37,372 nt of DNA from Parcubacteria group bacterium GW2011_GWA2_48_9 (GTDB lineage: Bacteria; Patescibacteriota; Patescibacteriia; UBA10025), in NCBI GenBank assembly GCA_001003705.1, contig LCPQ01000018.1, positions 1 through 37,372 on the forward strand, read 5' to 3'. The notes under the pieces are model-generated. The model made no database searches. It worked only from the letters and a program-made list of their open reading frames with translations, and had not been told where the DNA came from. Positions within the stretch are counted from its first letter, which is position 1. Each line of letters opens with the position of its first letter. A program made the position numbers and the translations under genes. Positions 2,632 through 29,376 of the stretch are shown here, piece after piece.

Positions 2632-2643
2632 AGCACCCGCGGG

Positions 2644-4266: not shown

Positions 4267-4278
4267 AGGGACAGTATA

Positions 4279-7394: not shown

Positions 7395-8342
7395 CTACAA
7401 CTCCTGCACCAGCTTCCCCTTCTCAACCCTATTCTTCACCCATCGGAACTCCCCTTCTTTCTCATCAGCATACGCCATCGTCCGGTACTCTTCTCCCATG
7501 CGGTCACCGAGTTCCATGCCGATCATAGCGGATTCGTTTTCAGTGAGTCCAAGTCGTTGCTGGAGAAGGTATTGGAGAAATTCGCTCATGACTATCGGGT
7601 GGGTGGAATTGTCATCTATAAACTGCTTCACTACTTCTGCGTTATATTTTTCAGAAGCATAGCTTTTGACTGTCTCCCGCCAATTTGGGCCTTCTTTAAG
7701 GGCAGCTTGAAGTCTCCCCTCGCGTGCCAAGATGAGAAGTATGGCTACCGTTTTTCCGACATCTTTGATTTTCAGTGCGTTGACTAGTTGCTTTTTCAAC
7801 TCCACTGGGTCACTACCCATTTTTGCACCTAATGCTTTTTCAGTGAGGAACCAGCTCTGCATACGGCCTTTTGCAAACTCTAATAACTCGCTAAGACTCT
7901 TTTTGTCTTTCACAACTAGGGGTCGCATAGCACCTTTCGTTCGCGCCGCTGATTCGTCCTTGAACTGGAGAGGTGCCCAGTCGAACTCTTCAATCGTCTG
8001 GTCCCAAAACGCTATACCCTCGTACACCCCGCCGAGAAACCTGCCCACATCCATACCGACAAGAGCGCTTTCGGGAATGGAGAGTTTCAGGCGTTCAGTG
8101 AGGAGGTACTGAAAAAATGCTGATAACGCCTCTGGTGAAGCGGGATGTTTCTCAATATAGATATCAGCTCGTTGGTCGGAGTAATGACGTGAAACAAATT
8201 CCTTCGTAGCACGCAGCCAGCTAGCATTTTGGCGAAGAATATCCTGCAGCTGTTTGCGATGGGCCAGATAGTACATAGCGGCAGTGACCTCACTTATGTT
8301 TTCCACTTCGAGAGCCCGAGCAAAGATGCCTTTCACTTTCAC
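7395..8342 (-). CDS. Hypothetical protein with an internal duplication
   Basis: A 315-residue soluble, probably helical protein that I do not recognise. It is built from two related halves. Residues about 1-125 and 181-305 align: IFARALEVENIS with LVNALKIKDVG; FFQYLLTERLKLSIPESAL with FLQYLLQQRLGLTENESAM; VGMDVGRFLGGVYEG with IGMELGDRMGEEYR; and EEFDW with GEFRW. The start is GTG, overlapping the stop of the upstream gene by four bases (GTGA), which implies translational coupling. It is the last gene of the six-gene cluster with the giant secreted protein and the VirB6/TrbL-like protein. No signal peptide or membrane segment is seen, so a cytoplasmic accessory role is the simplest inference. 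Confidence 0.8.
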   Translation of the reverse strand: MKVKGIFARALEVENISEVTAAMYYLAHRKQLQDILRQNASWLRATKEFVSRHYSDQRADIYIEKHPASPEALSAFFQYLLTERLKLSIPESALVGMDVGRFLGGVYEGIAFWDQTIEEFDWAPLQFKDESAARTKGAMRPLVVKDKKSLSELLEFAKGRMQSWFLTEKALGAKMGSDPVELKKQLVNALKIKDVGKTVAILLILAREGRLQAALKEGPNWRETVKSYASEKYNAEVVKQFIDDNSTHPIVMSEFLQYLLQQRLGLTENESAMIGMELGDRMGEEYRTMAYADEKEGEFRWVKNRVEKGKLVQEL

Positions 8343-9127
8343 TGGATCGTTTCCCGCTCTATGAGCTTAGCTGCATCATCAGTTCGAAGATGCTCGAGCC
8401 GTCCTTCGCGCAAGATACGCTTCTCGCCACCATCTACGAAGCTGACGCTTTCTTCCAACCCTTCGGGAGTAAGCGAGGAGAGTTTCAAATGCTCATACAC
8501 GTCGATAAGACGCCTGATTGCCATCTGCTCGTCAGGATCGAGAACGATGGTGTTCAGCTTTGAAAAAAACTCGGTCTGCTGAAGCGTATTTACCCGTTCA
8601 GTGATGCCGACAGTGACATTATAGAACCGTAAAACATTTCTTACCGTGCCGGGTAGATGCTGGCCGCTGATATCGAGCGAGCTCGTCGTGATAGTTTTTT
8701 CATTTCCCAGTAGCCGGTTCCGGCATTTCTGCTTCAACTCATCTCGATCCTCGAGTAGTATCAAACGAACCATCTTGGCGTCGATTTCTTCATTGAGCAC
8801 AATATCGCCGTCGTCTAAAGCCAAGACTACGTCGTCAGCGAAAAACTGCTCCACCTGGTCATTGGGAAGCATTGAGAGTGCTACTGCGCGTGCTCGCGCT
8901 AGCGCATGCTCATATTCCGTCAATAGTTCGGGATGCCTCGTTTCCAGATGAAGCATTGCCAACTCCTTCGGCAGCACTTTTACTATCTTGTACGCGTCAT
9001 GCACTTCTCTGAACAGAACGATCTGATTGACGTAGCCTTTCACCTCTTGTAACGTGGCATGATCAATAAAATCAAGCTTCTTTGTATCTTTTACGGGTTG
9101 GGGTGGTGCATTCATGGTGATAGGCAT
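8339..9127 (-). CDS. Hypothetical protein of the giant-protein cluster
   Basis: A 262-residue acidic protein without signal peptide or membrane segment. Its start codon shares a base with the stop of the upstream gene (TAATG at 9125-9129), and its own TGA overlaps the next gene's GTG, so all three are translationally coupled. A second possible start (Met5, ATG at 9113-9115) would remove four residues. The C-terminal third contains a segment reading YEHLKLSSLTPEGLEESV. I do not recognise a family. Its place among genes for a membrane channel-like protein and a giant exported protein suggests a cytoplasmic component of the same system, by context alone. Confidence 0.78.
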   Translation of the reverse strand: MPITMNAPPQPVKDTKKLDFIDHATLQEVKGYVNQIVLFREVHDAYKIVKVLPKELAMLHLETRHPELLTEYEHALARARAVALSMLPNDQVEQFFADDVVLALDDGDIVLNEEIDAKMVRLILLEDRDELKQKCRNRLLGNEKTITTSSLDISGQHLPGTVRNVLRFYNVTVGITERVNTLQQTEFFSKLNTIVLDPDEQMAIRRLIDVYEHLKLSSLTPEGLEESVSFVDGGEKRILREGRLEHLRTDDAAKLIERETIQ

Positions 9128-10539
9128 TAGACTCTGCGGCTCGGGGCGCCATACGCTTCATCTATGTAGCGCCTGAGATGATCAAATGGCTCTTCTCCCG
9201 CCGTAGCGCCAAATTCCCGAATTTTATTGAGCACACCGGTAAATCCTTTCCGTTGTTCATCGGGTATATGTTCCGATATCTTCGCGAGATCATCGTAGTT
9301 GGGGCCGGATGTCAGGTTGATTGAAAGGTTAGGGCCAAAGCGTCCTCTCGATATGAGGCTTTCAAATTTATTCCAGTTCTCTTGGATGAACGCTTTCGCA
9401 AATGGACTGTTCTTATACTTCCGTTCGCCTGTTGCCTCAAAGTTACGCGCTCGTTCGGCCCGAGTTGCTCCCTCTGCCGTCTCTGTACCAAAAGCAAGTC
9501 GGTTTGACCGGCGCATAAAGTTCTCGAAGTCCTGTTTCCTGACTTCTGCCATCATTTCAACCAAACGATCCTGTTCCTTCTGCCAGTACTGTTTGCCATC
9601 TTTCACCCCGACGCCTTCATCTTCGATCTTAACGTCATGCTCTTTTTCAAACTTCTCGCGTGCTTTCGCATCTTTCATACCCTTCTTCCCTACGAACTCA
9701 TTCATAATGAATGATTTCAACCCCTGCGCATCGCTCCCATCACCCGTCATATTGAAGAATTCATTTTCATTTGCGTACTCTGTCGCCTTCAGGGCTGCAG
9801 CACCCATACGAATCAGGTCACCCCGTTCCTTCGCGTCACGGTAATAACTATATAACTCTTGCCAGCTGTCAGTGAGCATTTCCGACTTTTCTTTCGCTAT
9901 CGCTAACGCCTGATCGCGGCGCATGGCATAGTTGACTGCAGGACGGATATGCTGTGCCTGTTTCTCCAGAGTTACTTGCTCTTCCTTCTGCTTTTTAATG
10001 CTCACTCCCATTTCCACTGCCCTCGTCTGCACCTGTTTGCGAGCCGCCTCGCTCGGATTGAGTTGGCCCTTATCTTTCAAACCCTGCAGGCGCTGCATTT
10101 CCCGCTGTACCCGTTTAGCTTCGTCCCCAGCGAATGACCACTTAGAATCGACTCGAAGCGGCTGGTTCCATTCTTTCGCAGAACGCAGGGCATCCACCAG
10201 CCCGAACTTTTCGCGTTGTTTCTCACTATATTGCCCTTCGAGCTCTTTCTTTTCATCGCCGAGCCGGGTTCGAAGTTCCTCCTCGCCTTCTGCGGGCAGT
10301 GCAGCAATCCGTTCTCTTATTTCCTTCAGCTGTTCATCTCGTATCTTTTTTAAATCCGCATCGAGCGATGTGATTTTCGACGTGATCCGCGGCTCAATCT
10401 CGACGGCGTCATACTCCATGGACTCGCCGTTGCCTTGCAACCTGTTCAATTCATCGCCAAGATGTTCTTGTGCCGCGCCGTATTCTGCTTCCGTCGGAAT
10501 GGCGGCTTGAGATTCCAATTCTTTCTGCCTCTCCTCCAT
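9127..10539 (-). CDS. Charged coiled-coil-rich hypothetical protein
   Basis: A 470-residue, highly charged protein rich in Glu, Lys, Arg and Gln. The first 220 residues (for example MEERQKELESQAAI, and runs such as DADLKKIRDEQLKEI and KKQKEEQVTLEKQ) have the look of long helices or coiled coil. The rest is mixed, with segments such as ENEFFNMTGDGSDAQGLKSF and SPFAKAFIQENWNKFESL. There is no signal peptide or membrane segment. It begins 38 bases after the VirB6/TrbL-like gene. In type IV secretion loci such soluble helical proteins can be cytoplasmic partners, but I cannot assign a named family; the role is inferred from neighbours only. Confidence 0.78.
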   Translation of the reverse strand: MEERQKELESQAAIPTEAEYGAAQEHLGDELNRLQGNGESMEYDAVEIEPRITSKITSLDADLKKIRDEQLKEIRERIAALPAEGEEELRTRLGDEKKELEGQYSEKQREKFGLVDALRSAKEWNQPLRVDSKWSFAGDEAKRVQREMQRLQGLKDKGQLNPSEAARKQVQTRAVEMGVSIKKQKEEQVTLEKQAQHIRPAVNYAMRRDQALAIAKEKSEMLTDSWQELYSYYRDAKERGDLIRMGAAALKATEYANENEFFNMTGDGSDAQGLKSFIMNEFVGKKGMKDAKAREKFEKEHDVKIEDEGVGVKDGKQYWQKEQDRLVEMMAEVRKQDFENFMRRSNRLAFGTETAEGATRAERARNFEATGERKYKNSPFAKAFIQENWNKFESLISRGRFGPNLSINLTSGPNYDDLAKISEHIPDEQRKGFTGVLNKIREFGATAGEEPFDHLRRYIDEAYGAPSRRV

Positions 10540-10577
10540 CGTCGTGATTCTCTCACGGCCCGCATCGACACGCTGAT

Positions 10578-11882
10578 CTATCTTTTTTGACTTGCCTGCC
10601 GTTCTCTACTGGTTCGCGCTCGATGGTGCTTCCACCCTTGTTTCCAGGTATCCATCGAGGTCTGGATACCCAGCCTTGCGCCGGCTTCTTCACGGAGATA
10701 CCCAAATGTCCCCTTGCCTGCTTCTTTGATCCCTCTCTGAGCCAGCCTCAACGGTGCTAAGGCAGCCATGCCGCCCTTTTGGATGGCGCTACTCGCACGA
10801 CCCGCTAGATTCCCCGCCACACCGCCAAACTGCTGAGTTACCATGAGCGCTCCCATGAGCATCCCTATGCCAAAAATGAATGAGAGGATGCCTTCGCCAG
10901 TTGACGCTTGAGAAACCGACCCGGCAAGTTCGGTGTCAGTCGGTGTAGTGCTCGTCAAAACCTGTGACGGGACATCTTGGGTTGACTCATCGACCTGCTT
11001 CACAAGTGTGCTCGTCGTTGTAGTGGTCACGGTAAGCGCAAGCCAGAGAAAAAACGCTAAGACAGGACCGATGACCGCATGCTTCCAAAACGAGCTCCAC
11101 CACATGCTTGAATACTTCTGGGTGCCAGGGTATGCCGCTAGCATGTACGCGAGGGGGGACAGGATGACGAGAATCCATAACATGATGATGCGGATAATCA
11201 GTACGACGACCATGATAAGCGTTACCATGAGAGCGATAACGAGAAACGCGACTGCCAAGAGAACGGCCCCGAGAAGTTCTCCGGAAGGCGGTGGTGTCTT
11301 CACATCTCGGAATTTTAAAATATTCTTCAGCTGGAACATCTCTGTAAAGTTCCCCGCCGCGGCATCCTTGAAAGCGTTGACGAATGTCAGCATGATCACC
11401 TGCATAAGGTCGATGAAAAACCCTGCGATGAATTTCGAAAGGTTGATAAGAATCGCCATCAGTATCAGCTTGCCGAGCAAGCGCTGATAGCGGTATTGTT
11501 CTATCCGCAGTATCGTGCCGAAAGAGATTACCAGTAGGATGAGTATAAAAAACATGTTAGAAACATCGCGTACGATCACCCAGCCGGTTTGCACTGCTTG
11601 CACGTCAATAAAGTGATTGTATTGCGCGATACCGATAAGGATGCCAATAACGACAAGCAATAGCTTGCCAAGTAGCGAAGCGATCCAGAGGATCAAGTTG
11701 GCTAGTATTTCGATCAATGCATCAATTGGTCCCGCGTGAGCCGGCATCGGTATGGACGTCATAACCACGATAGCCACTACACCGAATGCGAGTAAAAAAG
11801 CCCGAGCCCGAGGGTCGTTTGATTTCCAGAAGGAGAGTTTTGGTAGTATATTCCTCAGAAGCCGTACGTTAAAGTATGTCAA
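10578..11882 (-). CDS. VirB6/TrbL-like polytopic membrane protein
   Basis: A 434-residue polytopic membrane protein. Hydrophobic spans are near 27-46 (ending PAHA, like a cleavable signal), 57-88, 108-124, 138-165, 203-247, 268-286 and 330-350, followed by a basic soluble tail of about 80 residues. The long central hydrophobic block and the segment SPLAYMLAAYPG followed by WWSSFWKHAVIGP are typical of VirB6/TrbL-type proteins, the inner-membrane channel components of type IV secretion systems. No VirB4 or other VirB gene is visible in the window, so a full secretion system is not shown. The first codon is TTG (11880-11882), at the edge of an intergenic inverted repeat, without a ribosome site, so the start is uncertain. 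It ends with TAG. Confidence 0.82.
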   Translation of the reverse strand: MTYFNVRLLRNILPKLSFWKSNDPRARAFLLAFGVVAIVVMTSIPMPAHAGPIDALIEILANLILWIASLLGKLLLVVIGILIGIAQYNHFIDVQAVQTGWVIVRDVSNMFFILILLVISFGTILRIEQYRYQRLLGKLILMAILINLSKFIAGFFIDLMQVIMLTFVNAFKDAAAGNFTEMFQLKNILKFRDVKTPPPSGELLGAVLLAVAFLVIALMVTLIMVVVLIIRIIMLWILVILSPLAYMLAAYPGTQKYSSMWWSSFWKHAVIGPVLAFFLWLALTVTTTTTSTLVKQVDESTQDVPSQVLTSTTPTDTELAGSVSQASTGEGILSFIFGIGMLMGALMVTQQFGGVAGNLAGRASSAIQKGGMAALAPLRLAQRGIKEAGKGTFGYLREEAGARLGIQTSMDTWKQGWKHHRARTSRERQASQKR

Positions 11883-11886
11883 TTGT

Positions 11887-11992
11887 CGAATTACGGATTA
11901 GCGCATTGCGGATTAGCTTTTTAGTAGATACCTTTGCTAACGCGAATTTTTCATAAAAACGAATACGCAATCCACAACTCGCCAATTCGTTG
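11887..11992. repeat. Imperfect inverted repeat (border repeat copy 1)
   Basis: The left arm (11887-11916) carries CGAATTACGGATTAG and GCATTGCGGATTAG. The right arm (11959-11992) carries CGAATACGCAATCC and GCCAATTCGTTGA. The arms are imperfect reverse complements with about 40 bases between them. It fills the gap between the giant gene and the VirB6/TrbL-like gene. It shares words and order with the copies at 21.8 and 26.2 kb. It might form a hairpin in the transcript. Confidence 0.6.
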
Positions 11993-11996
11993 ATTT

Positions 11997-14900
11997 CTAA
12001 TAAATACTAATCGCCCCGTTAAACGCGTACCACCCAGGGTTGTCATCCGGACCTCCAACACAGCTTGTATCCTTCTGAGTAATAACAGGGGGGATAACTG
12101 CCGGAGCTGGCTGTATGCAGGTCCCACCACCGGCTGTGCAATCAGCGTCCTGGCACCGCCATCCGGCAAAAGTGCTGGCGGCGGAACAAATTCCCTGGAT
12201 TACATTACTGCACGTTCGCCAGTGGTCGACGAGCTGAACGCGTGGGATATACGTGCCCGCCTCGGTGAAAATATGGGTAAATGTATGCGGGTTAAGCGGA
12301 TCGCTCCTCGGCGCATACCCCCAGACCATACTTCCCTCACGGTCATTAGTGGTCCCATCATCGCCGTCCCAATCAATGAGGATCGCATCGAGCGGCATTT
12401 GTTCTTCATTGACATCCGCCGTGAAACTGACCTGCACCCTCGTACCCGCAGGATATGATACGTTCCATGCAGCTTTATCATTGCGATATGAATTCCCTCC
12501 GACTGAAAGCGTGAAATTACCGATATGAGGCGGGATAGCACAGAAATCGTCATCCAGGCCGTCAGTCGGCGGGCGGACTCCGTCGGCGCATAGCTGCATA
12601 TCATCAAACGCAGTATTCCATGCGCTGACGCCGCTGGCCGCATTATCAGAGACGTATTTCCTAAGCGTATTATCCCATACCCATCCGTCGAATGCCTTGG
12701 CAAAAAATCTTTTTATTATATATTGAGTTGGCACGCCTTCGCCGCCCCATATAGGTTTTGGGGATGGACCACTGCACCATCCGCCGTTGCTTTCACATTT
12801 CTGCTTGCTGAGGGAGTCGGCACATGGCGTGCCGAGCAAGTTTACGTCAGTAGATCCGTAGCACACTGGCGTACCACACTGATCAAACCCCATCATACTT
12901 GATTCGCAGATTGTGGGTGAGCCTGCGCGTGTTTGGTTCAATCGTTCCGTCTGATTATTGAGAGGAAGCTGGACATAGAGCGGCGTACCGAGTTCTTTGC
13001 CATACCATATTTCAGGCGAACCAATAAGTGGTGGGATTGCTCCGAATGGGGCGAGATCCTGTGCATAGGTGTACTTGTTCATATGGGTGAGGTAACTACT
13101 TCCTTCGGCGATTCGCTTAGTCCATGGAACTACGTCATCCCCGGCTACCTGGACTACGACTTTGCATGACTCACGAAGTAAGTATTCAATCTCCAGAGTG
13201 CCAATTTCTCCTCCGCTTGAAGGTACACCGGCACGATAGTCGTACCCGAGAACAAATCCGTCGTCATCGAAGCGAACTCGCAAGCCAAAGTCGGCTGCAT
13301 CATGCCCCGCTGAACACTGTGGAACAAATCCAAAATCAAATCCTTCATCGGCTGACGTACCTCCATGCCAGATTTTTTGATCACCTTTATAATAGTTAGT
13401 TGGCGAAACGTAAAACGTCCATTTTCGTGCTTCTTCAGCTTGGAAATCATCGTTCGATGTGACGTGAACTTTTACCAGTTCGATGTCGGAGCGGTTGATA
13501 GCTCGCTCAGTATCATTTGCCGGTATCATCCGGGCTGGAGCGGTATCACAGTCAAAACCAGTACCAGTAGTCAGACAATTCGACGCGTAATCGTCACCGA
13601 AGAATCTGATGCCGTACCTTTGAAGAATGCTGCCAGTTGCGTCTTTAAACCACGTGCGCGTGCTTGAAAATTGATTGTTGCAATCGTTTTGCACTTCGAT
13701 TAACTCATCTTCTACGTAGCAACTATTTCGTGTAGAGGGGGCGTCACCGACGCAGGGACCATAATCAGAGAACCCGAACTTACATTCGGAATCTATGCTG
13801 CACCGCATGATCGGTCTACTCGCGCAATGACCAGTCCGCGCATACCATTCACACCAATGATCCAGTGACCCACTGAGTCGAGTCGGCGTCGAGTATGAAT
13901 CAGTGTTCCAGAACGCATTGCCTTTTGCGTTCGTGCAGTAGTAGAGCGGCACGCGTCCTGTGTATCCCGCCTGCTGTTCCTGGCCGAAAACTGACGTCTC
14001 TCCGCTGATGACGTCGACCGGCCACCAGTTCAGGCAGATATTCGAATTCTTCGGATCCTTTTCCACGCAGTACCCCTTCCATCCGCGATACTGCACGCCG
14101 TCGAAGTCGGTATACTCGCACAATGCCGAGTCTTCGCGCGGGTACATGCGGCACGTGCGCACTACTTTATTCGGAGTGATCTCAGATCCCGAGCCGAGAC
14201 AGACTCCGGGCGCCACGCAATCATCATTGGTGGAGCAAACCTTTGTGTTATCATTAGAACACGTTCCGCGCTCGGAATGTACTTTCAGAATAGGTTTCAT
14301 AGAGACATCATCGAGGTAGAAAATGCGGCCAGAATCAATTTCTTGGGAGATGCGCAATACGGCCGTTTCTGCGGTATTGTCCACATCAAACGGTCCGAGG
14401 ACGTACTCGTCCCATGAAGGTGTCAACGCGACAGTACCTATAGTAACTGTCGTTACCCCCTGGACAAGTTCGAATGTTATCGCATCACCGTCGACAGTGT
14501 TAGCGTTTTCGTATTTTGCTTTGAACGATAGGATGTAGTCTCCGCTCAAAAGGAACGCTTGTCCCAATGTATACTCGACCCCCGCTCCTGCCGCGTCACC
14601 AGGATTGACTTCCAATATATTATTCTCATTCAGGAGCGCATTCCCCGGGATCGAACCGTCATCAGCCATTTCCGTCAGCCGGGCAGTAGTATCAGTTCCG
14701 AGCGCTTTCCAGCCGCGGTAGGACTGATTTTCCGTCCAGGCCGTACTGGAATCATTCGGTTTGATATTTTGCGAATCGAGGAAACTGTTATCCCAAAAAT
14801 CTCCGTCTTTGACCAAATCTTTTGACCCGGCCCCGAACGTACCCAGCTCATACATAGCCGAATACGGATAATTACCTTCGATCAGCCGCTCGATGCCGCA

Positions 14901-17900
14901 TGGTGCGCCGCCGCAATCAGCAGGGCTCGAACAGTCCTGGGTCGGCTCATTGCTGCACTTCAGCTGACGTCCCCAGTTCACGCCTGCTCGCGCGAGCCCT
15001 GAAATATTTTCCATGAGATTTACGTTGTTACTCGCGTCAGCAGCACTGGTATAGATCAGATCGGCGCCGACGAGTGACTGGCAGATACCCTTGTCAAATG
15101 GCTGGGCAGGCGGTTTGCAGTCCGCGTCTGCCGTACACCGGACGCTCTGGTCATCCGAGCATACTTTCTCTGGCACGAGCGGATCCAGCAGTGCACAAAT
15201 CCCCTGTACGCAGTCGCTGTCGCGCTGACAGGAACGGCCGTTGTCAGAGCACGCTTTTGTCCCGATGCATTCGCCGCTGACCGGATCGAGCTTATTGCAC
15301 GGCGCGCGTTCGAAGCATACTTCCTCTTCCTCGCCGCGCTCGTTCCGCACGGTGGTACTTGCAGAGCATTCGAGCCATTTGTTGCACGTACGGTCGCGCT
15401 GGACCTTGATGATTTGGTTCGAATCGCAGTCAGGGCGCGCCGGCGTATTTGGATTGTTATCACAGGCTCCCGATGGAGCGCTGCCGTCAGACGTGCCTTT
15501 CGCGGTAAACGTCGGCGGAGGAGTCGTAGCATTGTAGAATAGCCGGCAACCGGCAAGATCGTCGACGACGTTGTTGCATGATGTCGTGTCGACAGTAGGT
15601 TCGACATAATAATACGCCTGGCACGCAGCCACGGATGCGCATAGCCCGGCGCCGCACTGCGTCGCATGAGGTATCTGTATCTGACAGGTAAATGGTACAC
15701 CTGGCGCGGCATAGCCGCAGTCGGCACCCGGATCAGAAATACTACACGGCTGGTTAAATTTTGGTCCGGCAGAGCAAAATGCCGTCGTATCGCAGAAACT
15801 TCCGGGGGTTGTCGAAGCAGTATCGCATCTGCCGACGTTCGTTTGGTTGGCTGGAACATTGACGTCGCATCCTTCAGGATCCAACGGATCAAGGTATTCA
15901 GTACAGCCGCTCTGGTCAGCCGGGCACAGTCCGACCATCCCATCAGCTATCGATGTGTCTGTCAACGACGGTCCGCATCCTATGTCGGTGCCCCTCCGAT
16001 ACCATCCGGCTGTAGTGGATCCCGGAGGGATGTTGTATTCGCACGTTGCGCTTCCTGGATCTTTAAAGTACGCGAATCCGCCATCGTATGAATACTCTTG
16101 GCAACTGCTCTCATCCTGGCGGCATAAGATCTGCTCATAATCGTCGGGGTCGTTTACGATGTAGGTATCAGTGTATCCATCGACGCTGTTGTAAGCATTG
16201 ATAATCGGCTCGCCCATGCGCATACACCCTGCTTGGTTACTCTGGCAGTAGACGGCGGGATCATTAATCAGTGTGACCACTTCATCAGCCGGTATCGTAA
16301 TATCAGTGGGGAAAGCAACAGGTGCCGGACCGCCGCTGAAATAATTATTCAGGAAGTTGAGATCTGCCCCATTCACCGTGCTATCGCCGTTCACATCCAT
16401 GATTGCCCATGGATCGGAACGGTTGACACCGGAAATACATGTGTTACCTACTCCGCAAATGGCAGCGGGATTTTCCGGATCACATTGTTGGGTGGTTCCA
16501 GCAAATGGGCCGGTAGTGCAGCGGCCATCGAAGTAACTGTTGAGCTGTACTAGGTCGTCTCGATCGAGCTGACCGTCAGCGTCATAATCGCCACGCGGGC
16601 GCACAGTTACCTCAATATTCTCGGGGAAAGGATTCTCATTGTTTTGAGTCTGGATGAGTGCTTCACACCCTACAGCATCGGCATCGCAAATTTTCGAGAA
16701 CGATTTCAAATAGTGTATCCGGCTGTCACGGTCGCGGTATGCTTCGCAGTTTTCATATCCCGAACATTCAGTGTACGACCCTTGGACTACGAAGACGTCG
16801 TCAGTGACTTCTTGGAACTGGAGATTGTCCAGATAAAACGGCCGCGTACCGCCGATGAAGAGGAACGCCCCCGGGGGCACTGCCGCGTCGAAGAACAGCG
16901 GTCCGAGCGTGTATTGGTTCCAATCGCCCGCTTGAGCTACGGCCGTACCGCGGAAACGCGCAGTGCTTCCATCATCCAATGTGATAATATTCCCCGCCCC
17001 GTCATAGATTCCCGCTTCGATGCTCGCATCATTACTACCGCCTGACGCCCAGAATTTCAAGACGTATGACGTATCACTTTCAATGAGACCATCAATGGGT
17101 GTCCATGCTCCTGGTGGCGCACCAAATCCGAGATCGAAGACTACCATCGAATGCCCACCCGCTTGGGTGGAGTAGTTGCTTGGGTTGAGCGCCGCATCAG
17201 CATTTGATACCCACGGTGCTATTGATCCTGATTCAAAATTCGTTGAAATAAGCGTGCGAACATTACTACCGGCTGAACCCTGGTACTCGCGACATCCGGC
17301 GAACGTCGCAGAACACGTGACGCTCTCACCCGGCATCATATGATAAGTGATGTCATGCGAGGCCTGTGTATCAATCGTGTTCTTATAGGGGTGGCAGTCT
17401 TCCGTGACGAAAATAATTCGTGAACGTAAACGATAGGAGGTAACTCCGTTGGAATCGTAAAACTCCGCGCAGTCCGGATTTGTATACAAATCTGCGGCTG
17501 AACAGTCCTGGTTAGCAATAGGATGATTTACAGCGGGAAGAGGACCGGCACCATCTTCATCAAATGTGACATTATCAACGCACGCCGGATACTGGATAGC
17601 TGAAGCGGGATCGTCTGGCGCCAGATTCGTGCATGGCGCGCGTGTTCCGGCTGCAACGACATTGCTCCGCAAGAGATTAAAAGCTTTCAGCTGATACCCG
17701 GACTCTTCGTCGCCAATCCATGTGTAGTAGTTGGCCGCCTCGGCTCCCGCGTCAGCCGGCTTCGCACACTGCCGGATAAAGCTGTAGTACTCTAACCCCT
17801 CACCGCCGCGCGCCACTTCATCGAGATTTGTATACTCTTCGCACCCGAGCTGGGTGGCAGGACAGGTAAGACCTGTCTTCGGAACAAATGAAACCGGTTC

Positions 17901-20768
17901 TCGCGAAGGCCTGCGTGGAGTATGTTCGATGGGCATTTCACGAAATGCTTTGCACCCGACGAATTCAGCGGGACATTGGTCGCAAGAAAATGGATCGTTC
18001 GGATCACAGGACGACGGATCGGTGATTTTGCCAGTCACTGCCAGGTCGCCGGACAGCGGTGTATACAGTTCGCAGCCAACATCATCGACGTTACATGATG
18101 CACGTCCGCCATCCATATAAATTCTATTAACGTCGCCGTAACCCTTATATGCCGTCACCGGAGCGCCTTCTTCGAGCTGAAGAGCGTCGAAAACGACGGT
18201 ACAGTTCGTCACAGCTCGCAGATTACCTTGGAGTGACGTGCGTGTTTCAGACTTACTCGCAGTGCCCGTCGTTATATATCTTTGCCAAACATCCTTTTTA
18301 TACGTTACCGGCGTATCACTCAACCATACGTCAGCCGGATACGCGATGAGCTGTACTGAGGAGTCTACAGAGGTGATAGATGCATCAGTACAACTATCAA
18401 GTTTTGCATAATAAGAGAATGTGAATGTGCGCCCAGCAAGTGACCGCCCCGTATCAGTGCTGTGCGGAGCGTACCAGGTAGTTCCGGCATGGGCAGGATC
18501 CCAAATGAGCTTGACGGCATATTGTCCATCATAGGCATCGCGAGTTACATCAAGCACGTGTTCGGTATTTCCCGTATCGAATGGAGCAAGTCCGGGCCTA
18601 TCGCCATGCGACGGAGACGGGTCGGCATAATCGACAACACCGTCGTCTATTCTGTCATCAGTGATGTACGAGTGGTCGAACCGTTCAAAGCTCGAATTGC
18701 GAACGAGGTTAGTGCCTAAACTTGGTTTCGTGCGGATAAACTCCGCGCATCCATCAGCCGACCCATCACACGTCGAGACGTCGCGGTCAAACGCGAGGCG
18801 GTTATGTTGGCCGTTCGCGTCGAGACCATAATCACATTGCCAGTCTCCTGACGCGTCCGCTTCCTGGCAATACCATTGGCACCCGGCATTAGACGCATTG
18901 CAGTTATTGTACTGGAGCGTGTCCTTTAAGTAGGACACTTCCGTATTATTGGGATCGACGAACGTCTGACAGCTAGCGAACTGCGCATTGCACGCATCAC
19001 CGTTAAACCGCCATACGTCGCGCTCTTCCGTGCAGTACCCATAGCGTTCGCACGAGCCATCGGCACCTTCAACGATACAGGTCTGTTCGTCTACGCAGGT
19101 TTGGCGGCGAGTCAGCTGTCGCTCATTCGGGGTTACGGCAGTTTGCTCAACCAGTCCTTGCCTCAAAAGTCCCGTGTCGCCGTCATGGTCTATCCAGCTG
19201 GCTGCAATGAGTGATTCGCCAGCGCCTTCGCGTTTACAGAAAACTTCCGGCGACGTGAGAACCCAATTCGGGTCAACAAGCCCGCAGAAAGGAGAATAGT
19301 CCATATTCTCGCTGCAGGTACCGTCGCTCACGCCGTCACCGTTGTTGTCGGGGCACTGCAAGTCATTGTCGCATTCTTTGGCCCTGTCGTTCGAGCACGC
19401 TCGCTGTCCGCAGAAATTAAATTTGTCCATCACTTCTTGTATTGAAAACGTTTGTGTCGCAAAATCCCTGATATAGAGCGCCGCGAGTTCCCAGCCCACA
19501 GGAACGATGCGGTACTTTCGGAGCATAACCAGCGACCGGTATGGATATCCGTTTTGGTATTCCGGTTCTGTACCGTTCGCACCGAAGCCGAACGTCTTGT
19601 TCGGATCTATTAATCCCTGGTTAATCGCTTCCTGAAGTGTCAGGGTGTCTCTGACGGCTTGTGCGAAACGGCCGTCAACGATGCAGTTGTTAAATGCTGG
19701 CCCCGAAGGGCAACTGGACAGCTCTGAAATTATATCCACCGACCCGCCGCTGATGAAGTCAGGCTGAGCCAGTTTAGAAAAAATACTTTTTGCCGCAGCA
19801 ATGCCTCCCCCTTTGGTAGATTCGAGCAAGCCTGCGAATGACGAACCCTCCAGCCCTGGATTGAAACCGCGTGCAAAAATCCTTTGGAGCAGCTTTGAAA
19901 CAAGTGTATTGGTAAATGTCCCGACAGCATCTGCGATTGGGCTGCCTGTCTGCGTAGTATAACCGGCGAACGCCTGCTCTAGAGGTATTGCAGCTCCGCG
20001 TTCGACAAGTGAAGCCGGCGTTTTTACGATGCCAGTAATCGGGGATGTGACAGCCCTAAATCCGCCTAACAAGCCCTTATCTCGTTCTGCCTCTGTTGCT
20101 TTTGCTCGAGCCTGTGCAAGATCACCGCGAATTGATAAAAAAGCGCCAAACTCATTGGCTTCTGGATGAAATTCGTAAGAAAATTCTATCAATTGGCCTT
20201 GGGCAGCTTTTTCGAAACTATCGGAAAACGTTTGCCCGATCCGTGTAATTGAACATCGGGGAAGCTGTGGCTCTACAGACCTCCTTGCAAAGATATCCAA
20301 TTTCACTTTTGTTTGAAGATCAATCGGCTGGCATAAGCTTCGACCGAATACATGAGTTGATAACCTGTCCAGATAATCACCTACTGCCGCATCAGCTACT
20401 TCGTTGATAAAATTCCCAGGGTTAGTCAAGAAAAGTGGCTTCTGCCCTTTGCCGCCTGAGGCAATATATACGGCAGAATCATACGCTACCTTATTCAAAA
20501 ACATGCGCACCGTGTTTTTATATGCGACGTCTGCCGTCAGTTTGATAGCTTTTTTTACTGCGCTAATGAGCGCTTCCGCCGGGTTTGCTACGATAGTTAC
20601 GAACGTAACGTCGCCAACGCCTAAGAGCGCCTGCGCTGGCTTTGGCATAACCGCCACGGATCCAAAGAGAACCACCCCGATCAATACACCAATGATAAGG
20701 GTTTTTGGTGTCGTGCGCCTGCCTGCTAGTAGGCGAGGCTTCGTATGCGGTTCGTGGGATGCGTTCAT
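11997..20768 (-). CDS. Giant cysteine-rich secreted surface protein (2923 residues)
   Basis: One uninterrupted 8.8-kb frame. The N-terminus has a basic stretch and a membrane/signal segment (about 23-47, ending PKPAQA), then a helical region to about 450 with few cysteines. After that the protein is cysteine-rich, about 120 Cys by hand count. Modules by position: about fifteen copies of a short 'G-C-x-x-Tyr/Phe' unit (for example GCELY, GCEEY, GCREY, GCTEY) between about 600 and 1742; beta-sandwich, carbohydrate-binding-like segments near 685-890 (NLVRNSSFERF), 1170-1325 and 1980-2160; a dockerin-like pair of calcium loops near 1390 (DYDADGQLDRDDL) and 1456 (DVNGDSTVNGADL); a second class of six-to-eight Cys-rich units (for example CSNDNTKVCSTNDDC) near 455, 1690, 1850-1900, 1945, 2165, 2310 and 2860; and a PKD-like domain near 2750-2850. 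It starts 14 bases after the TSP3-repeat gene. An exported adhesin or host-contact structure is inferred. Confidence 0.9.
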   Translation of the reverse strand: MNASHEPHTKPRLLAGRRTTPKTLIIGVLIGVVLFGSVAVMPKPAQALLGVGDVTFVTIVANPAEALISAVKKAIKLTADVAYKNTVRMFLNKVAYDSAVYIASGGKGQKPLFLTNPGNFINEVADAAVGDYLDRLSTHVFGRSLCQPIDLQTKVKLDIFARRSVEPQLPRCSITRIGQTFSDSFEKAAQGQLIEFSYEFHPEANEFGAFLSIRGDLAQARAKATEAERDKGLLGGFRAVTSPITGIVKTPASLVERGAAIPLEQAFAGYTTQTGSPIADAVGTFTNTLVSKLLQRIFARGFNPGLEGSSFAGLLESTKGGGIAAAKSIFSKLAQPDFISGGSVDIISELSSCPSGPAFNNCIVDGRFAQAVRDTLTLQEAINQGLIDPNKTFGFGANGTEPEYQNGYPYRSLVMLRKYRIVPVGWELAALYIRDFATQTFSIQEVMDKFNFCGQRACSNDRAKECDNDLQCPDNNGDGVSDGTCSENMDYSPFCGLVDPNWVLTSPEVFCKREGAGESLIAASWIDHDGDTGLLRQGLVEQTAVTPNERQLTRRQTCVDEQTCIVEGADGSCERYGYCTEERDVWRFNGDACNAQFASCQTFVDPNNTEVSYLKDTLQYNNCNASNAGCQWYCQEADASGDWQCDYGLDANGQHNRLAFDRDVSTCDGSADGCAEFIRTKPSLGTNLVRNSSFERFDHSYITDDRIDDGVVDYADPSPSHGDRPGLAPFDTGNTEHVLDVTRDAYDGQYAVKLIWDPAHAGTTWYAPHSTDTGRSLAGRTFTFSYYAKLDSCTDASITSVDSSVQLIAYPADVWLSDTPVTYKKDVWQRYITTGTASKSETRTSLQGNLRAVTNCTVVFDALQLEEGAPVTAYKGYGDVNRIYMDGGRASCNVDDVGCELYTPLSGDLAVTGKITDPSSCDPNDPFSCDQCPAEFVGCKAFREMPIEHTPRRPSREPVSFVPKTGLTCPATQLGCEEYTNLDEVARGGEGLEYYSFIRQCAKPADAGAEAANYYTWIGDEESGYQLKAFNLLRSNVVAAGTRAPCTNLAPDDPASAIQYPACVDNVTFDEDGAGPLPAVNHPIANQDCSAADLYTNPDCAEFYDSNGVTSYRLRSRIIFVTEDCHPYKNTIDTQASHDITYHMMPGESVTCSATFAGCREYQGSAGSNVRTLISTNFESGSIAPWVSNADAALNPSNYSTQAGGHSMVVFDLGFGAPPGAWTPIDGLIESDTSYVLKFWASGGSNDASIEAGIYDGAGNIITLDDGSTARFRGTAVAQAGDWNQYTLGPLFFDAAVPPGAFLFIGGTRPFYLDNLQFQEVTDDVFVVQGSYTECSGYENCEAYRDRDSRIHYLKSFSKICDADAVGCEALIQTQNNENPFPENIEVTVRPRGDYDADGQLDRDDLVQLNSYFDGRCTTGPFAGTTQQCDPENPAAICGVGNTCISGVNRSDPWAIMDVNGDSTVNGADLNFLNNYFSGGPAPVAFPTDITIPADEVVTLINDPAVYCQSNQAGCMRMGEPIINAYNSVDGYTDTYIVNDPDDYEQILCRQDESSCQEYSYDGGFAYFKDPGSATCEYNIPPGSTTAGWYRRGTDIGCGPSLTDTSIADGMVGLCPADQSGCTEYLDPLDPEGCDVNVPANQTNVGRCDTASTTPGSFCDTTAFCSAGPKFNQPCSISDPGADCGYAAPGVPFTCQIQIPHATQCGAGLCASVAACQAYYYVEPTVDTTSCNNVVDDLAGCRLFYNATTPPPTFTAKGTSDGSAPSGACDNNPNTPARPDCDSNQIIKVQRDRTCNKWLECSASTTVRNERGEEEEVCFERAPCNKLDPVSGECIGTKACSDNGRSCQRDSDCVQGICALLDPLVPEKVCSDDQSVRCTADADCKPPAQPFDKGICQSLVGADLIYTSAADASNNVNLMENISGLARAGVNWGRQLKCSNEPTQDCSSPADCGGAPCGIERLIEGNYPYSAMYELGTFGAGSKDLVKDGDFWDNSFLDSQNIKPNDSSTAWTENQSYRGWKALGTDTTARLTEMADDGSIPGNALLNENNILEVNPGDAAGAGVEYTLGQAFLLSGDYILSFKAKYENANTVDGDAITFELVQGVTTVTIGTVALTPSWDEYVLGPFDVDNTAETAVLRISQEIDSGRIFYLDDVSMKPILKVHSERGTCSNDNTKVCSTNDDCVAPGVCLGSGSEITPNKVVRTCRMYPREDSALCEYTDFDGVQYRGWKGYCVEKDPKNSNICLNWWPVDVISGETSVFGQEQQAGYTGRVPLYYCTNAKGNAFWNTDSYSTPTRLSGSLDHWCEWYARTGHCASRPIMRCSIDSECKFGFSDYGPCVGDAPSTRNSCYVEDELIEVQNDCNNQFSSTRTWFKDATGSILQRYGIRFFGDDYASNCLTTGTGFDCDTAPARMIPANDTERAINRSDIELVKVHVTSNDDFQAEEARKWTFYVSPTNYYKGDQKIWHGGTSADEGFDFGFVPQCSAGHDAADFGLRVRFDDDGFVLGYDYRAGVPSSGGEIGTLEIEYLLRESCKVVVQVAGDDVVPWTKRIAEGSSYLTHMNKYTYAQDLAPFGAIPPLIGSPEIWYGKELGTPLYVQLPLNNQTERLNQTRAGSPTICESSMMGFDQCGTPVCYGSTDVNLLGTPCADSLSKQKCESNGGWCSGPSPKPIWGGEGVPTQYIIKRFFAKAFDGWVWDNTLRKYVSDNAASGVSAWNTAFDDMQLCADGVRPPTDGLDDDFCAIPPHIGNFTLSVGGNSYRNDKAAWNVSYPAGTRVQVSFTADVNEEQMPLDAILIDWDGDDGTTNDREGSMVWGYAPRSDPLNPHTFTHIFTEAGTYIPRVQLVDHWRTCSNVIQGICSAASTFAGWRCQDADCTAGGGTCIQPAPAVIPPVITQKDTSCVGGPDDNPGWYAFNGAISIY

Positions 20769-20782
20769 GCGTCACGAATAAG

Positions 20783-21619
20783 TTATTGGGAACCTGTCTG
20801 CTCGGCGAGTGCCTGCTGGAATATCAACCGGAGCGCCTCATCGTCCACTTGTTCGACAACCTTCGAGTCCACGCCGGAAGCGATCAGGAATGAGCGGATT
20901 TGGTCCGCCGACAATGTTTGAAGCTCATTGACGTTCACAGTTGTCGGGGACAGCAAATTTAGATTATTCGTATTTGTCGACCCGTTATTCGTTGCCTCGT
21001 TGAGAGTGACCGGTTCGCCTCCTTGTTCGACTACAATGTCATTGTAGACTTCCAGCAACTCCGCGTCGGACAGCCCTTGAATAATATTTTCAGGCGCACC
21101 TGCATTCCGGAGTGCTTCACGCAGCTGGTCAAGGGTGACAGTGTCTGTAGGGGCTACGGTAGTCCCTGTGTTCGTGTTAACGCTTGGGCGAAAGCAGTTC
21201 TGCCCTTCAGGACAGTTTGGATCTTTCCCTGCTGATACTTCATCCTTATCGCTCGTCGAATCACTGTCAGAATCGGTCAAATAGGGACTTGTTCTGTGAA
21301 TATACAGTTCGTCGTAATCGTTCAAGCCGTCATTGTCGGTATCCTTGCTGCGCAGATTTGATGTATCGACAGTCGTGTTCGAGAGCGCAAAAGCATTGAT
21401 ATCCAGTGAGATGTTTGTCTGTTGACTATTGGAAAAAGGTGACTTGAGCACTTGCCCTATCCCGATAGCGCCGAAAACAATCGCGGCTAGTCCAACTACA
21501 AGAATGAGGCCAAAAACCACCTGGCTTTGCGGTGGGAGCTTGGGCTTCTGATACCCTTTTGAAGAATATGATGAGCTCCTTTCTTCTTCTGTTTCATTTC
21601 TGAAGAAAGCAGAGGACAT
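20783..21619 (-). CDS. Membrane-anchored thrombospondin type-3 repeat protein
   Basis: A 278-residue protein with one membrane span at about 34-58, then calcium-binding thrombospondin type-3 repeats (DTDNDGLNDYDELY and DSDSDSTSDKDEVSAG, about 92-132). Two helical repeats follow, near 150-190 and 230-275, that align without gaps over 36 residues (DQLREALRNAGA with DQIRSFLIASGV; 9 identities by eye). The frame stays open 32 codons further upstream to 21715, but a near-consensus promoter lies inside that stretch (-10 at 21674-21679), so translation must begin downstream and the ATG at 21617-21619 is the sensible start. It is the first gene of the giant-protein cluster, 14 bases before the giant gene. 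Likely a cell-envelope partner of the giant protein (inference). Confidence 0.85.
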   Translation of the reverse strand: MSSAFFRNETEEERSSSYSSKGYQKPKLPPQSQVVFGLILVVGLAAIVFGAIGIGQVLKSPFSNSQQTNISLDINAFALSNTTVDTSNLRSKDTDNDGLNDYDELYIHRTSPYLTDSDSDSTSDKDEVSAGKDPNCPEGQNCFRPSVNTNTGTTVAPTDTVTLDQLREALRNAGAPENIIQGLSDAELLEVYNDIVVEQGGEPVTLNEATNNGSTNTNNLNLLSPTTVNVNELQTLSADQIRSFLIASGVDSKVVEQVDDEALRLIFQQALAEQTGSQ

Positions 21620-21673
21620 TGAAAGGAAGATTATTGAGAAAATTACTCCTAATTTCCTGATTCGTACTCCGAA

Positions 21674-21702
21674 ATTATAGCAAATGTAGGCGACAAAGTC
21701 AA
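21674..21702 (-). promoter_or_regulatory. Sigma-70-type promoter of the giant-protein cluster
   Basis: On the minus strand, TTGACT (21697-21702) and a perfect TATAAT (21674-21679) are separated by exactly 17 bases. Transcription would start near 21667, giving a leader of about 48 bases before the ATG at 21619. It is the best promoter match I found in the window and probably drives the six genes down to 7395, as no convincing terminator is seen between them. Confidence 0.75.
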
Positions 21703-21719
21703 ATACTAGCAGCATGAGC

Positions 21720-21832
21720 GGATTAACGAATTGTGAATTCGCGGATTACTCCTTCCAGTATGGCCCGCGTTGTGGAAAATTCAGCCGTAGTAATACGCAA
21801 TGCGTTAACCCGTAATTCGTTAATTCGTCAAC
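21720..21832. repeat. Imperfect inverted repeat (border repeat copy 2)
   Basis: The left arm is GGATTAACGAATTGTGAATT (21720-21739, continuing CGCGGATTA). The right arm (21792-21832) carries AATACGCAATGCGTTAACCC and GTAATTCGTTAATTCGTCAA. The arms are imperfect reverse complements. The right arm runs into the end of rsmA and supplies its last codons and TAA stop. It sits between rsmA and the promoter of the giant-protein cluster. Confidence 0.6.
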
Positions 21833-22701
21833 TTACTCATCAACACCCTCCATTCCTCTAAACTAAGTTCCTGCGCCCTCGCATTCTCCGAAATACCGAT
21901 CGAGAGAAGTAGGGCTTCCACGGCCGACGGTAAAAGTCCCGCGAATCCCGCCAGATTGTTTCTTAATTTTTTTCGGCGAGCGCTAAAGCCGGCGCGCGCG
22001 ACCTTAAAAAAAACTTTTTCATCGATACCTGCATGGCGCCAATGGATATCTCTGAATGTGACAAGCGCCGCATCCACCTTTGGCATGGGCCAGAAAGCGC
22101 TTCTTTTCACCGTACGAACTATGTGAACATCGGCGTACGACTGCGCCATGAGGCTCAACATACTGGTCGAGCCGGGACTGGCTGCTGTACGTTGGGCAAC
22201 TTCTTTCTACAAAAGGACTGTCATGGCACGCGGACGGGGTGTCGAGGAAAGAAAAATATCCAGTACATGCGACGCGATATTAAAAGGCAGGTTTGCAGCA
22301 ATATCGAATTCCCCTTCTGTGTATGTAGCCCGACTCCGCTCCCACCATCCCAGTGCATCTCCCTGAATGATATGAACATGCGGCTTTGAATGGAAGTTAC
22401 GAGCAAGATAGCGCGCGCATGCCGTATCCAACTCAACGGCGGTGAGATCAACGCCGAATCGCGCAAGAGCTTCGGTGAGTACTCCTATGCCAGGACCGAT
22501 CTCAAGAATCGGCAATCGTGGCTCGAGAGACGCTGCTTCGACAATGTCAGCAAGTACCCTCTCATCAACTAGAAAATGCTGTCCCAGATCATGCTGGGGC
22601 CGGAGCGACTCCCGTCTGCAGATGTCAACTACGCGCGCTTTCAACCTTCGGCTCTGAGGCCGCTCAGGCTCGAAGAGTGCTCCTCGATGTGGGGTGTGCA
22701 T
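21820..22701 (-). pseudogene. rsmA: 16S rRNA dimethyladenosine transferase (RsmA/KsgA) interrupted by an in-frame TAG
   Basis: RsmA/KsgA dimethylates two adjacent adenines near the 3' end of 16S rRNA with S-adenosylmethionine. All family motifs are present in one frame: LGQHFLVDERVL, the SAM-binding LEIGPGIGVLTEAL, the acidic VELD, GDAL, the catalytic NLPFNIAS, and C-terminal FSARRKKLRNNLAG. A single TAG at 22207-22209 breaks the frame between VLL and KEVAQR. Homologues usually read VLLQKEVAQR there, so this is a CAG to TAG change. Many window genes end in TAG, so recoding is unlikely. It may be a real nonsense mutation, a strain variant or a sequence error. The preferred start (ATG 22699-22701) overlaps the end of the upstream MFS gene by 38 bases. 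The last codons lie in an intergenic repeat. Confidence 0.88.
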
Positions 22702-23863
22702 AATGCGACCGTAGATAAAAAAATGTAAAGAGTGCTCCGAGGATAAAGATTGGCCACCAGGGGTCAGTAAAAATGAAGGTGAGTAGTATGACGAGGACAG
22801 CTGCAACGATTTTCCCGATCGACAATGCTTGTTCAAAAAATACCACATAGCTGACTGGTAACGTCCGACTCGCACGTTCGTAGATACCAGTTGACATGGG
22901 CACGAAAAGCATGTTTTTCGTCAGCTGGGATATGGCGTCGACGATGACCACTGCCGCAGGAATCCGTGCAAGCGAACGTAGCACCCAGATGCCAATATAG
23001 CCATAAATGCCTGTGCGAGCCAAGATCGGACGGGCCGAGCTGTCTGTCTTTTTTCCTATCACGAGCAACAGCAGCGTGGAAACAAGTGTTGCCGATGCCA
23101 CTAATGATCCAATGGTGCTCAGATCTCCGATGATAACATAGATAAAAATAGGCCACGCCACCATGACGATGAGTTCTTCGCCAAAGCCAAAAAATGTTCC
23201 GAGGTCCTTCCGCCGCTCTGGTTGGCGAAGATGGTTAACGACGCTTCGGTATGACTCATGTTCAGTCGTCCGCATTTCATGCAAATGCAAAAGGGGAATA
23301 GTGGAAAGAAGAAACAATGCACTATCGATAAGAAATAGCGCCGGAAACCCGAATTGTTCGATCACAAATCCGCCGACAAACGGCCCAAGGATCATCATGA
23401 CGGAGCTCACCGACATGAGGCTGCTCATTTCACGTCCGCGCTGGGATTGGTCAGAAAACGACATGAAGTCAATGTGAAACGCTGGCCAATAAAAAAGCTT
23501 TTGGAGAGCGAGAAGCAACACGGCAGGAAAAATGAGTAATGGCACGTGTGAAATACCATAGAGTGCTAGAAGATAGCCTATGAGAAAGAATTGACTGTAG
23601 AAAATTGAGTGTTCCACGCCAATCTTCGCAAGTATGCGTGAAGCAAAAGGCAGAATGAGCGCGTATACCACATATACCCCAAGATAAAACAACAATACCT
23701 GCGCGAGGGTATACCCGAGGGAAAAAAGATAGATCGGCTCAAAAATCAAAAAAGCGGCAAGCGCAAAATTCATCATGCCGACTGACCATACGAGAGACCG
23801 AAATGAATGCGAAACATGCTTAGAGAAATATCGCGGGAGATGCGGAGTAAATTTGTGAAGCAT
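22664..23863 (-). CDS. MFS-type multi-pass transporter, paralogue A
   Basis: A 399-residue protein made almost entirely of hydrophobic spans, about ten to twelve, as in the major facilitator superfamily. Typical features are short basic loops between early helices, for example ASRILAKIGVEHSIF after the second span, and a glycine-rich LGPFVGGFVIEQFG helix. It shares the signature FYWPAFHIDFMSFSDQSQRGRE with the second MFS gene four kilobases-worth of operon upstream (FYFWPAFHLDFARFSQRDRRAR there), so the two are diverged paralogues on either side of tsaC. It starts three bases after the tsaC stop. The substrate cannot be told from sequence. Confidence 0.85.
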   Translation of the reverse strand: MLHKFTPHLPRYFSKHVSHSFRSLVWSVGMMNFALAAFLIFEPIYLFSLGYTLAQVLLFYLGVYVVYALILPFASRILAKIGVEHSIFYSQFFLIGYLLALYGISHVPLLIFPAVLLLALQKLFYWPAFHIDFMSFSDQSQRGREMSSLMSVSSVMMILGPFVGGFVIEQFGFPALFLIDSALFLLSTIPLLHLHEMRTTEHESYRSVVNHLRQPERRKDLGTFFGFGEELIVMVAWPIFIYVIIGDLSTIGSLVASATLVSTLLLLVIGKKTDSSARPILARTGIYGYIGIWVLRSLARIPAAVVIVDAISQLTKNMLFVPMSTGIYERASRTLPVSYVVFFEQALSIGKIVAAVLVILLTFIFTDPWWPIFILGALFTFFYLRSHYAHPTSRSTLRA

Positions 23864-26277: not shown

Positions 26278-26765
26278 CTAGACCACGATGCTTAGTAACT
26301 TCCCCTTAACGTAGATAATCTTTTTCGGCTGTTTCCCGTCCAGCCACTTCTGCACCTTTTCACTGGCAACAGCGACTCTCGTAGCCTCGGCTTGATTAAT
26401 GTCTATGGCGACCATTATCTGATCGCGCACCTTCCCGTTGATTTGAACAACCAATTGAACCCTGTCTTCAACGATCATTTTCGGATCAAACGTCGGCCAT
26501 GGTTCCTTTGAAATACTTTCTCTGTGACCCATGAGTTCCCACAGTTCTTCCGCGATATGGGGAGCAAAGGGTGAAAGAAGTTTTACAAAAACTTCAAAAT
26601 CAGCCAGTGAAAATTTCTCTGCATCTGCAGTCGCAGCGTTCACATACTCCATATATGCAGCAATTGAGGTATTGAATTTGAACGCCAAGATATCTTCTGA
26701 GATCTTTTTGACAAGTGCGTGTGTCCGTTTATTCACACTCGCCAGCGCAGGCACGGCGGCCTGGG

Positions 26766-26789
26766 CTGGCTTGCTGGCTTGCTGGCTTG
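26766..26789. repeat. 8-base tandem repeat (3 units) inside leuS
   Basis: CTGGCTTG occurs three times head to tail. It encodes a low-complexity SASQQASKPAQAA linker in the C-terminal part of LeuRS. The total of 24 bases keeps frame, but gain or loss of one unit would not. Confidence 0.8.
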
Positions 26790-29281: not shown

Positions 29282-29311
29282 GATATACGATAAGAAGAAG
29301 CGTATTGTCAA
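29282..29311 (-). promoter_or_regulatory. Candidate promoter of leuS
   Basis: On the minus strand a perfect TTGACA (29306-29311) is followed after 18 bases by TATATC (29282-29287). Transcription would start near 29275, about 60 bases before the leuS ATG at 29215. The open frame that extends leuS upstream to 29377 crosses this promoter, which supports the shorter leuS start. Confidence 0.55.
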
Positions 29312-29376
29312 AATCAGACAGCGTAACAAACACAACAACGTCCTTGTGAAAAACGAGGAAGAACAGGAGATGTGCA

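Follow-up and report, generated by a model that had tools for sequence, protein, structure and literature searches.

Type IV secretion systems (T4SSs) of the MPF_FATA type have already been described in Patescibacteria (Wang et al., 2023, PMC10633639; Quinonero-Coronel et al., 2025, PMC12102498), and in the one tested patescibacterium, Southlakia epibionticum, a member of another class than the one considered here, the T4SS is essential for epibiotic growth (PMC10633639). As for contact with the partner cell, the available part of the 2025 survey reports that no PrgB-type adhesin was found in the T4SSs of Patescibacteria (PMC12102498). Here we analyse a locus in a 37,372-nucleotide stretch (contig LCPQ01000018.1, forward-strand numbering; hereafter the window) of Parcubacteria group bacterium GW2011_GWA2_48_9, whose minus strand carries at 7395-21715 a cluster of six genes, among them genes for a giant secreted cysteine-rich protein and a VirB6/TrbL-like channel subunit. 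The giant is most likely an outer subunit of the T4SS with a class-specific adhesive extension, and is thereby a tangible candidate for the part that makes contact, one whose gene could be deleted in relatives that can be cultured.

The published patescibacterial systems and this one have in common VirB4, the TrsD-type N-terminal half of VirB4, PrgI/VirB3, VirB6, pilin-like proteins, the ksgA/recG neighbourhood and the lack of a relaxase (in our genomes, of PF03432), whereas the giant, its TSP3-repeat partner and the domain that forms the N-terminal part of the giant (the N-domain) are not described in the available parts of these accounts (PMC12102498, PMC10633639); a review and the 2025 survey, as far as they were available, do not mention the giant either. 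Other described systems offer partial parallels. As in the VirB6/VirB5 stalk of R388 (PDB 7O3V, 8RT9, 8RTD), a VirB6 fold is accompanied here by a secreted protein encoded next to it; unlike VirB5 of R388, the N-domain has no VirB5 sequence similarity, is longer and in the class studied here is followed by ∼2,450 extra residues. The PrgB-type adhesins of Gram-positive conjugation (PMC12857230) have a role similar to the one proposed for the giant, surface contact for a monoderm T4SS, but the giant is disulfide-rich, carries carbohydrate-binding modules (CBMs) and gave neither an LPXTG motif at its C-terminus nor a match to a polymer-adhesin domain. The Cys-rich proteins of Peribacter (PMC4736985) and the FhaB-type exoproteins of more than 5000 amino acids (aa) of Patescibacterium danicum (PMC11809585) are also large, exported and proposed for attachment; they are, however, variable or without full-length homologues and are untied to T4SS, whereas the giant occurs in every sampled genome of its class and is conserved from end to end. 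The DotA-IcmX protochannel of Dot/Icm (PDB 9NGY) likewise combines a channel subunit with a secreted partner, an analogy only, as our VirB6 model matches it weakly (Foldseek E 4). With the cellulosome/dockerin systems the giant shares a pair of dockerin type I repeats. Among openly licensed full-text papers on Cys-rich surface proteins of these lineages nothing closer was found.

A giant secreted protein encoded upstream of virB6

The giant (11997..20768, minus strand, as are all genes of the cluster) consists of 2923 aa, including 122 cysteines, and aligns end to end with its relatives across the class. Across 34 such proteins longer than 2,200 aa, 52 of these cysteines recur in 80% or more, most of them in 94-100%. 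A profile made from residues 960-1635 and run on a phylum sample of 381 genomes matched every one of the 34 genomes that represent the class there; outside it we found just seven matches, all of them weak and confined to the CBM part, and rejected them as true giants. The giant is a full-length family that is class-wide in the sample and new relative to the published T4SSs.

The sequence-only reading of the window had described the giant as exported and built of extracellular-type modules, and the domain searches agree with that. The sole hydrophobic stretch of the protein is an N-terminal segment (20625..20714) that ends in an AQA signal-peptidase-type motif. It is followed by the N-domain (residues 49-475, 19344..20624), the first part of which is helical, and by a cysteine scaffold (residues 511-2278, 13935..19238) of recurrent C-x5/6-GC-x2-[YF] units that holds most of the near-invariant cysteines. 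Three CBM4/9-like modules lie within the scaffold: a first jelly roll at 18129..18716 (Pfam E 0.006, below the cut-off), recovered also by fold in an AlphaFold model of the first 1,200 residues, with Foldseek matches to CBM4/16/22 structures at probability 1.00; a second at 16869..17276 (33.8 bits for the whole protein, above the cut-off of 25.9); and a weak third at 14229..14846 (E 0.011). A dockerin type I-like pair of calcium loops is found at 16329..16616 (28.1 bits for the excised segment, against a cut-off of 22.9) and a PKD-like domain near the C-terminus at 12219..12506 (E 4e-4, below the cut-off). The C-terminus ends in NPGWYAFNGAISIY, without an LPXTG sorting motif, and Pfam gave no match to a polymer-adhesin domain anywhere in the giant. 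DsbA-like proteins are encoded in all 38 genomes of the class that we compared and VKOR in 21 of them; in 11 of 36 genomes a DsbA gene lies within 12.5 kb of virB4, against ∼2.6 expected by an estimate that ignores contig breaks and shared ancestry. Taken with the N-terminus of the giant, these gene counts and distances support its predicted export by the Sec pathway and disulfide-dependent folding.

The next gene (10578..11882) codes for a polytopic inner-membrane protein of 434 aa that has a single homologue in 35 of the 38 genomes. The window protein itself has no Pfam match, PF04610 (TrbL) included; that family matches nine of its 51 relatives, with a best E-value of 3e-5. Since the VirB6 profile matched no sequence in the PDB, structures were compared instead: an AlphaFold model (pLDDT 80) had R388 TrwI/VirB6 chains as its top five Foldseek matches (probability 0.94-1.00, E 0.008-0.12). 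By its modelled fold and the TrbL matches of its relatives, the protein is classified as VirB6/TrbL-like, as had been read from the sequence, and nothing marked it as an unrelated membrane protein. The VirB6 profile finds matches in 282 of the 381 genomes of the phylum.

Order of the two genes is conserved class-wide, as the sequence-only reading would have it. Named relatives include Falkowbacteria, Uhrbacteria, Kerfeldbacteria, Magasanikbacteria, Komeilibacteria, Buchananbacteria and Veblenbacteria, and in the sampled relatives a recG-like gene lies near the T4SS, together with other DNA genes. From these names and the recG-like gene we take the class to be ABY1, whose members are tiny and probably depend on a host. 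In 54 of the 69 named ABY1 loci that extend 1.5 kb or more upstream of virB6, the giant precedes virB6 on the same strand. The 5' end of the giant is visible in 21 cases, and in 14 of these the gene directly follows an open reading frame (ORF) with TSP3 motifs, at gaps of -29 to 35 bp. The recG neighbourhood of the T4SS has been noted for ABY1 in the part of the 2025 survey at hand (PMC12102498).

Such an arrangement could also arise if the giant were a class-specific surface coat protein or adhesin that plays no structural part in the T4SS and is kept near virB6 by the conservation, as a block, of a surface-protein operon behind ksgA. An interaction of the giant with VirB6 is putative, one to six genes separate the two in 37 of the 54 loci, and large exoproteins of the Cys-rich or FhaB type with no T4SS link occur in Peribacteria (PMC4736985) and ABY1 (PMC11809585). 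A coat protein would nevertheless be expected to evolve fast, unlike the giant, which is universal in the class sample and conserved over its whole length; outside the class the N-domain is found only beside VirB6; and the order ksgA-VirB6-VirB3-VirB4, with an N-domain-type slot between, is kept across classes. On balance we regard this explanation as unlikely, and the giant as an outer T4SS subunit remains the preferred reading.

The N-domain in other classes

A profile built from the first ∼455 residues of the giant matches, besides 34 genomes of the class, four others (G236, G311, G057 and G118; E 7e-18 to 6e-7), in which the protein is secreted and only 280-580 aa long. All four genes are found a short way upstream of virB6: those of L164, L206 and L208 adjoin it, and that of G057 (L207) has one gene between. 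G118 (L208) repeats the gene order of the class: ksgA and a small gene come first, then a TSP3 protein (PF18884 at E 5e-17) and the N-domain protein, here of 344 aa, and these are followed by VirB6, a protein of 462 aa, PrgI, TrsD and VirB4. In the reverse direction, a hidden Markov model of these four proteins had 26 matches among 869 ORFs of the ABY1 loci, all of them giants, and a Cys pair (C146 and C172 in the window) is common to giants and short proteins. The earlier description of the giant thus seems incomplete: judging by these matches, it probably consists of a short secreted protein of the T4SS cluster and a very long class-specific extension. Under the simplest history the short protein would predate the divergence of ABY1, which added ∼2,450 residues; loss of the extension outside ABY1 is a possible alternative.

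Several further genomes outside the class encode, in the slot that separates ksgA from virB6, a membrane protein of TSP3- or EF-like type together with a secreted protein of 540-700 aa, for which homology to the N-domain is suggestive only. Three of these secreted proteins (L168, L169 and L171) enter the N-domain search in its second round, where the search space was small, and single hhalign runs of the N-domain against slot proteins of this type gave 76-80%, so that they are possible relatives; four others (L161, L167, L170 and L174) have no detectable relation to the N-domain. Single-pass membrane proteins with TSP3- or EF-hand-like motifs are encoded between ksgA and VirB6 in other Patescibacteria at L208:8258-9520, L168:11903-12844, L162:12691-13671 and L169:7068-8021.

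By position, the N-domain protein invites comparison with VirB5, and it could be a diverged VirB5 homologue, forming a stalk or pilus tip atop VirB6 with the extension as tip adhesin. It is secreted, partly helical and encoded beside virB6, the clusters also contain genes for pilin-like proteins, and VirB5 and VirB6 of R388 form a stalk complex according to the PDB entry descriptions. However, no relative scores above the PF07996 cut-off, nor is there a sub-threshold match in the giant or any in the short N-domain proteins; VirB5-type subunits have not been reported for monoderm systems (PMC12857230); and the model shows the fold of the N-domain at low confidence. Homology to VirB5 therefore appears improbable to us. 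A tentative proposal, which we hold to be possible and somewhat short of an even chance, is that the N-domain protein represents an undescribed family of extracellular T4SS subunits on VirB6, the counterpart of VirB5 in monoderms by position though not in sequence, which in ABY1 was enlarged ∼5-10-fold into an arm that is braced by disulfides and binds carbohydrates, so that channel and host adhesin became one assembly. If so, the giant would be the adhesin reported missing from the T4SSs of Patescibacteria.

The remaining secretion genes and a proposed model of the assembly

That the locus belongs to a T4SS, as the sequence-only reading had it, is borne out by the relatives, in which its genes run into those for PrgI/VirB3, TrsD and VirB4. 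The contiguous set of the nearest relative (G001) starts with ksgA, TSP3, the giant, VirB6, a ∼440-aa and a ∼520-aa protein, VirB3, TrsD and VirB4. Next come a ∼190-aa protein with one transmembrane segment and a membrane protein, then a pilin-like protein and a propeller, followed by DsbA and by a fusion of SLT and pilin. A VirB4-like ATPase had been expected nearby; this applies to the relatives but not to the genome of the window, where VirB3, TrsD and VirB4 (NF045971, 368.7 bits, over the cut-off) are encoded on another contig (C25). In the class, VirB4 (NF045971) was found in 36 of 38 relatives and PrgI/VirB3 (PF12666) in 34 of 38 genomes, and the TrsD/TraC-type N-terminal half of VirB4 has matches in a relative and a homologue in L050. 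The pilin-like family PF18895 is below the cut-off in the window's genome (E 0.004); the nearest relative has it at E 7e-8, along with SLT, a VirB1-like transglycosylase domain (E 3e-20). TraG-D_C, of the coupling-protein type, occurs in 37 of 38 genomes, and the window's own genome has two copies, on C1 and C12, whereas the two halves of the operon are on C18 (the window) and C25. The ∼190-aa protein is conserved and a candidate VirB8-like subunit; its sole PDB match was DotF, at E 0.21.

In the genome G003 both halves of the operon are on one contig, separated by ∼13 kb of mostly phosphoenolpyruvate (PEP)-utiliser genes. In the window's genome a PPDK_N gene (PF01326, E 9e-99) adjoins the half on C25, and three PEP-utiliser genes are on the window side. 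Since PEP-type genes flank both halves, and given the layout in G003, the T4SS operon seems to have been broken up, in this taxonomic order, by an array of PEP-synthase-like genes.

We found the PF03432 relaxase in none of the 38 genomes (other MOB families were not searched), from which we infer that no conjugation is involved, in agreement with the available part of the 2025 survey (PMC12102498). The lack of this relaxase would also suit a device in which the T4SS and the giant capture DNA or nucleotides for import, not for host delivery or attachment, as would the DNA genes, a recG-like helicase among them, that surround the T4SS in ABY1 (seen here and noted in PMC12102498) and the existence of archaeal import systems with VirB4-like ATPases (PMC12102498). 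The modules of the giant are, however, carbohydrate-binding and not nucleic-acid-binding, and in S. epibionticum, according to the same source, the T4SS is essential, while uptake through comEC is a separate process that the cells can do without. We consider import very unlikely.

In our favoured explanation, which we hold to be probable though far from certain, the six genes constitute the envelope and extracellular half of the ABY1 chromosomal T4SS, with the giant as a host-contact arm docked on VirB6. It builds on gene order, family membership, conservation, the export-type N-terminus, domain content and the short N-domain protein beside VirB6 in other classes. VirB6 would be the membrane platform, with the 470-, 262- and 315-aa tail and partner proteins on its cytoplasmic side and the TSP3 protein, anchored in the membrane, as an accessory on the outside. 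The giant, exported via Sec and folded by DsbA-like and VKOR enzymes into a disulfide-braced chain, would dock by its N-domain on the outer face of VirB6, as suggested by gene order and by the restriction of the out-of-class N-domain to the position next to virB6. Its scaffold, bearing the CBM, dockerin and PKD domains, would extend as an arm for which the CBM folds suggest glycan binding, and this arm would seat the secretion channel on the partner cell. Host contact and stiffening of the arm by calcium are likewise presumed.

Several observations weigh against this explanation. The giant is associated with VirB6 through their genes, and their physical contact is putative; the giant was not seen upstream of virB6 in 15 of the 69 loci, and the interval between the two holds up to six genes. 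Two genomes that are 98-100% complete (G033 and G023; loci L035 and L041) have VirB6, and G033 the giant as well, yet no VirB4 was detected in them. The E-values of the VirB6 fold matches miss 0.001, and their TM-scores are low (0.2-0.4). The AlphaFold model of giant residues 45-1200 has a mean pLDDT of 62, with most of the N-domain below 60, and is too weak for a docking surface to be proposed. Finally, the giant has its N-terminal hydrophobic segment but no C-terminal membrane anchor and could be released.

Promoter, partner genes and other features of the window

The six closely packed ORFs and the single promoter-like site ahead of them were confirmed. Gaps between successive genes (TSP3, giant, VirB6, 470, 262 and 315 aa) are 14, 114, 38, -1 and -4 bp, spaced as in an operon. 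The promoter-like site, TTGACT-N17-TATAAT (21702..21674, minus strand), has 11 of 12 matches and an extended -10 element, with TG ahead of the second hexamer, and scores highest of the 14 such sites in the region. As shuffled sequences give 14.7 sites, the promoter is supported by its quality and position alone. It falls within the long form of the TSP3 ORF, which reaches 21715; homologues begin near residue 44 of that form, so that translation most likely begins at ATG 21619, with the promoter ∼50 bp upstream. The product (20783..21619, 278 aa) would be a single-pass membrane protein with calcium-binding-type repeats (PF18884, E 3e-5, just under the cut-off).

The three soluble proteins had been placed correctly, but two corrections apply to them. 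In most relatives the counterpart of the coiled-coil 470-aa protein (9127..10539) is fused to VirB6 as a long C-terminal tail. A frameshift as the cause of the split was rejected, because the protein is a separate gene in L035 and L042 too. The cytoplasmic-type proteins of 262 aa (8339..9127) and 315 aa (7395..8342) are the N- and C-terminal halves of one ∼430-aa gene of the relatives, and the latter has an apparently duplicated domain of ∼120 aa.

The conserved 5' neighbour of the cluster, ksgA (rsmA; 21820..22875, minus strand), is in two reading frames and may be a pseudogene, a split gene or the result of an assembly frameshift. Elsewhere in the T4SS loci, the ∼190-aa protein directly behind VirB4 (L050:2809-3375 and homologues) has a motif of the F-x-E-R-Y-G-S-Y-S type and is unrecognised by Pfam, and the VirB4 ORF of L104, at 1310 aa, is about twice the usual length, possibly through fusion with a neighbouring gene. 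Paralogous PEP-utiliser (swivelling-histidine) genes form arrays in the window (1111-5841), L027, L028, L050 (8012-8995 and 11650-13902) and L052; with the separate PPDK_N ATP-binding protein they look like a fragmented PEP-synthase or phosphotransfer set with many acceptors. The segment 29314-31982 of the window, which may be foreign or a chimeric join, has a somewhat higher GC content and a 487-aa lipoprotein-like ORF with no clear Pfam relatives. The leucyl-tRNA synthetase ORF at 26885-29377 contains a serine-hydrolase insert of the RBBP9 type (PF06821, E 3e-17) at residues 447-600, and the anticodon-binding end of the enzyme is encoded in another frame at 26278-26898.

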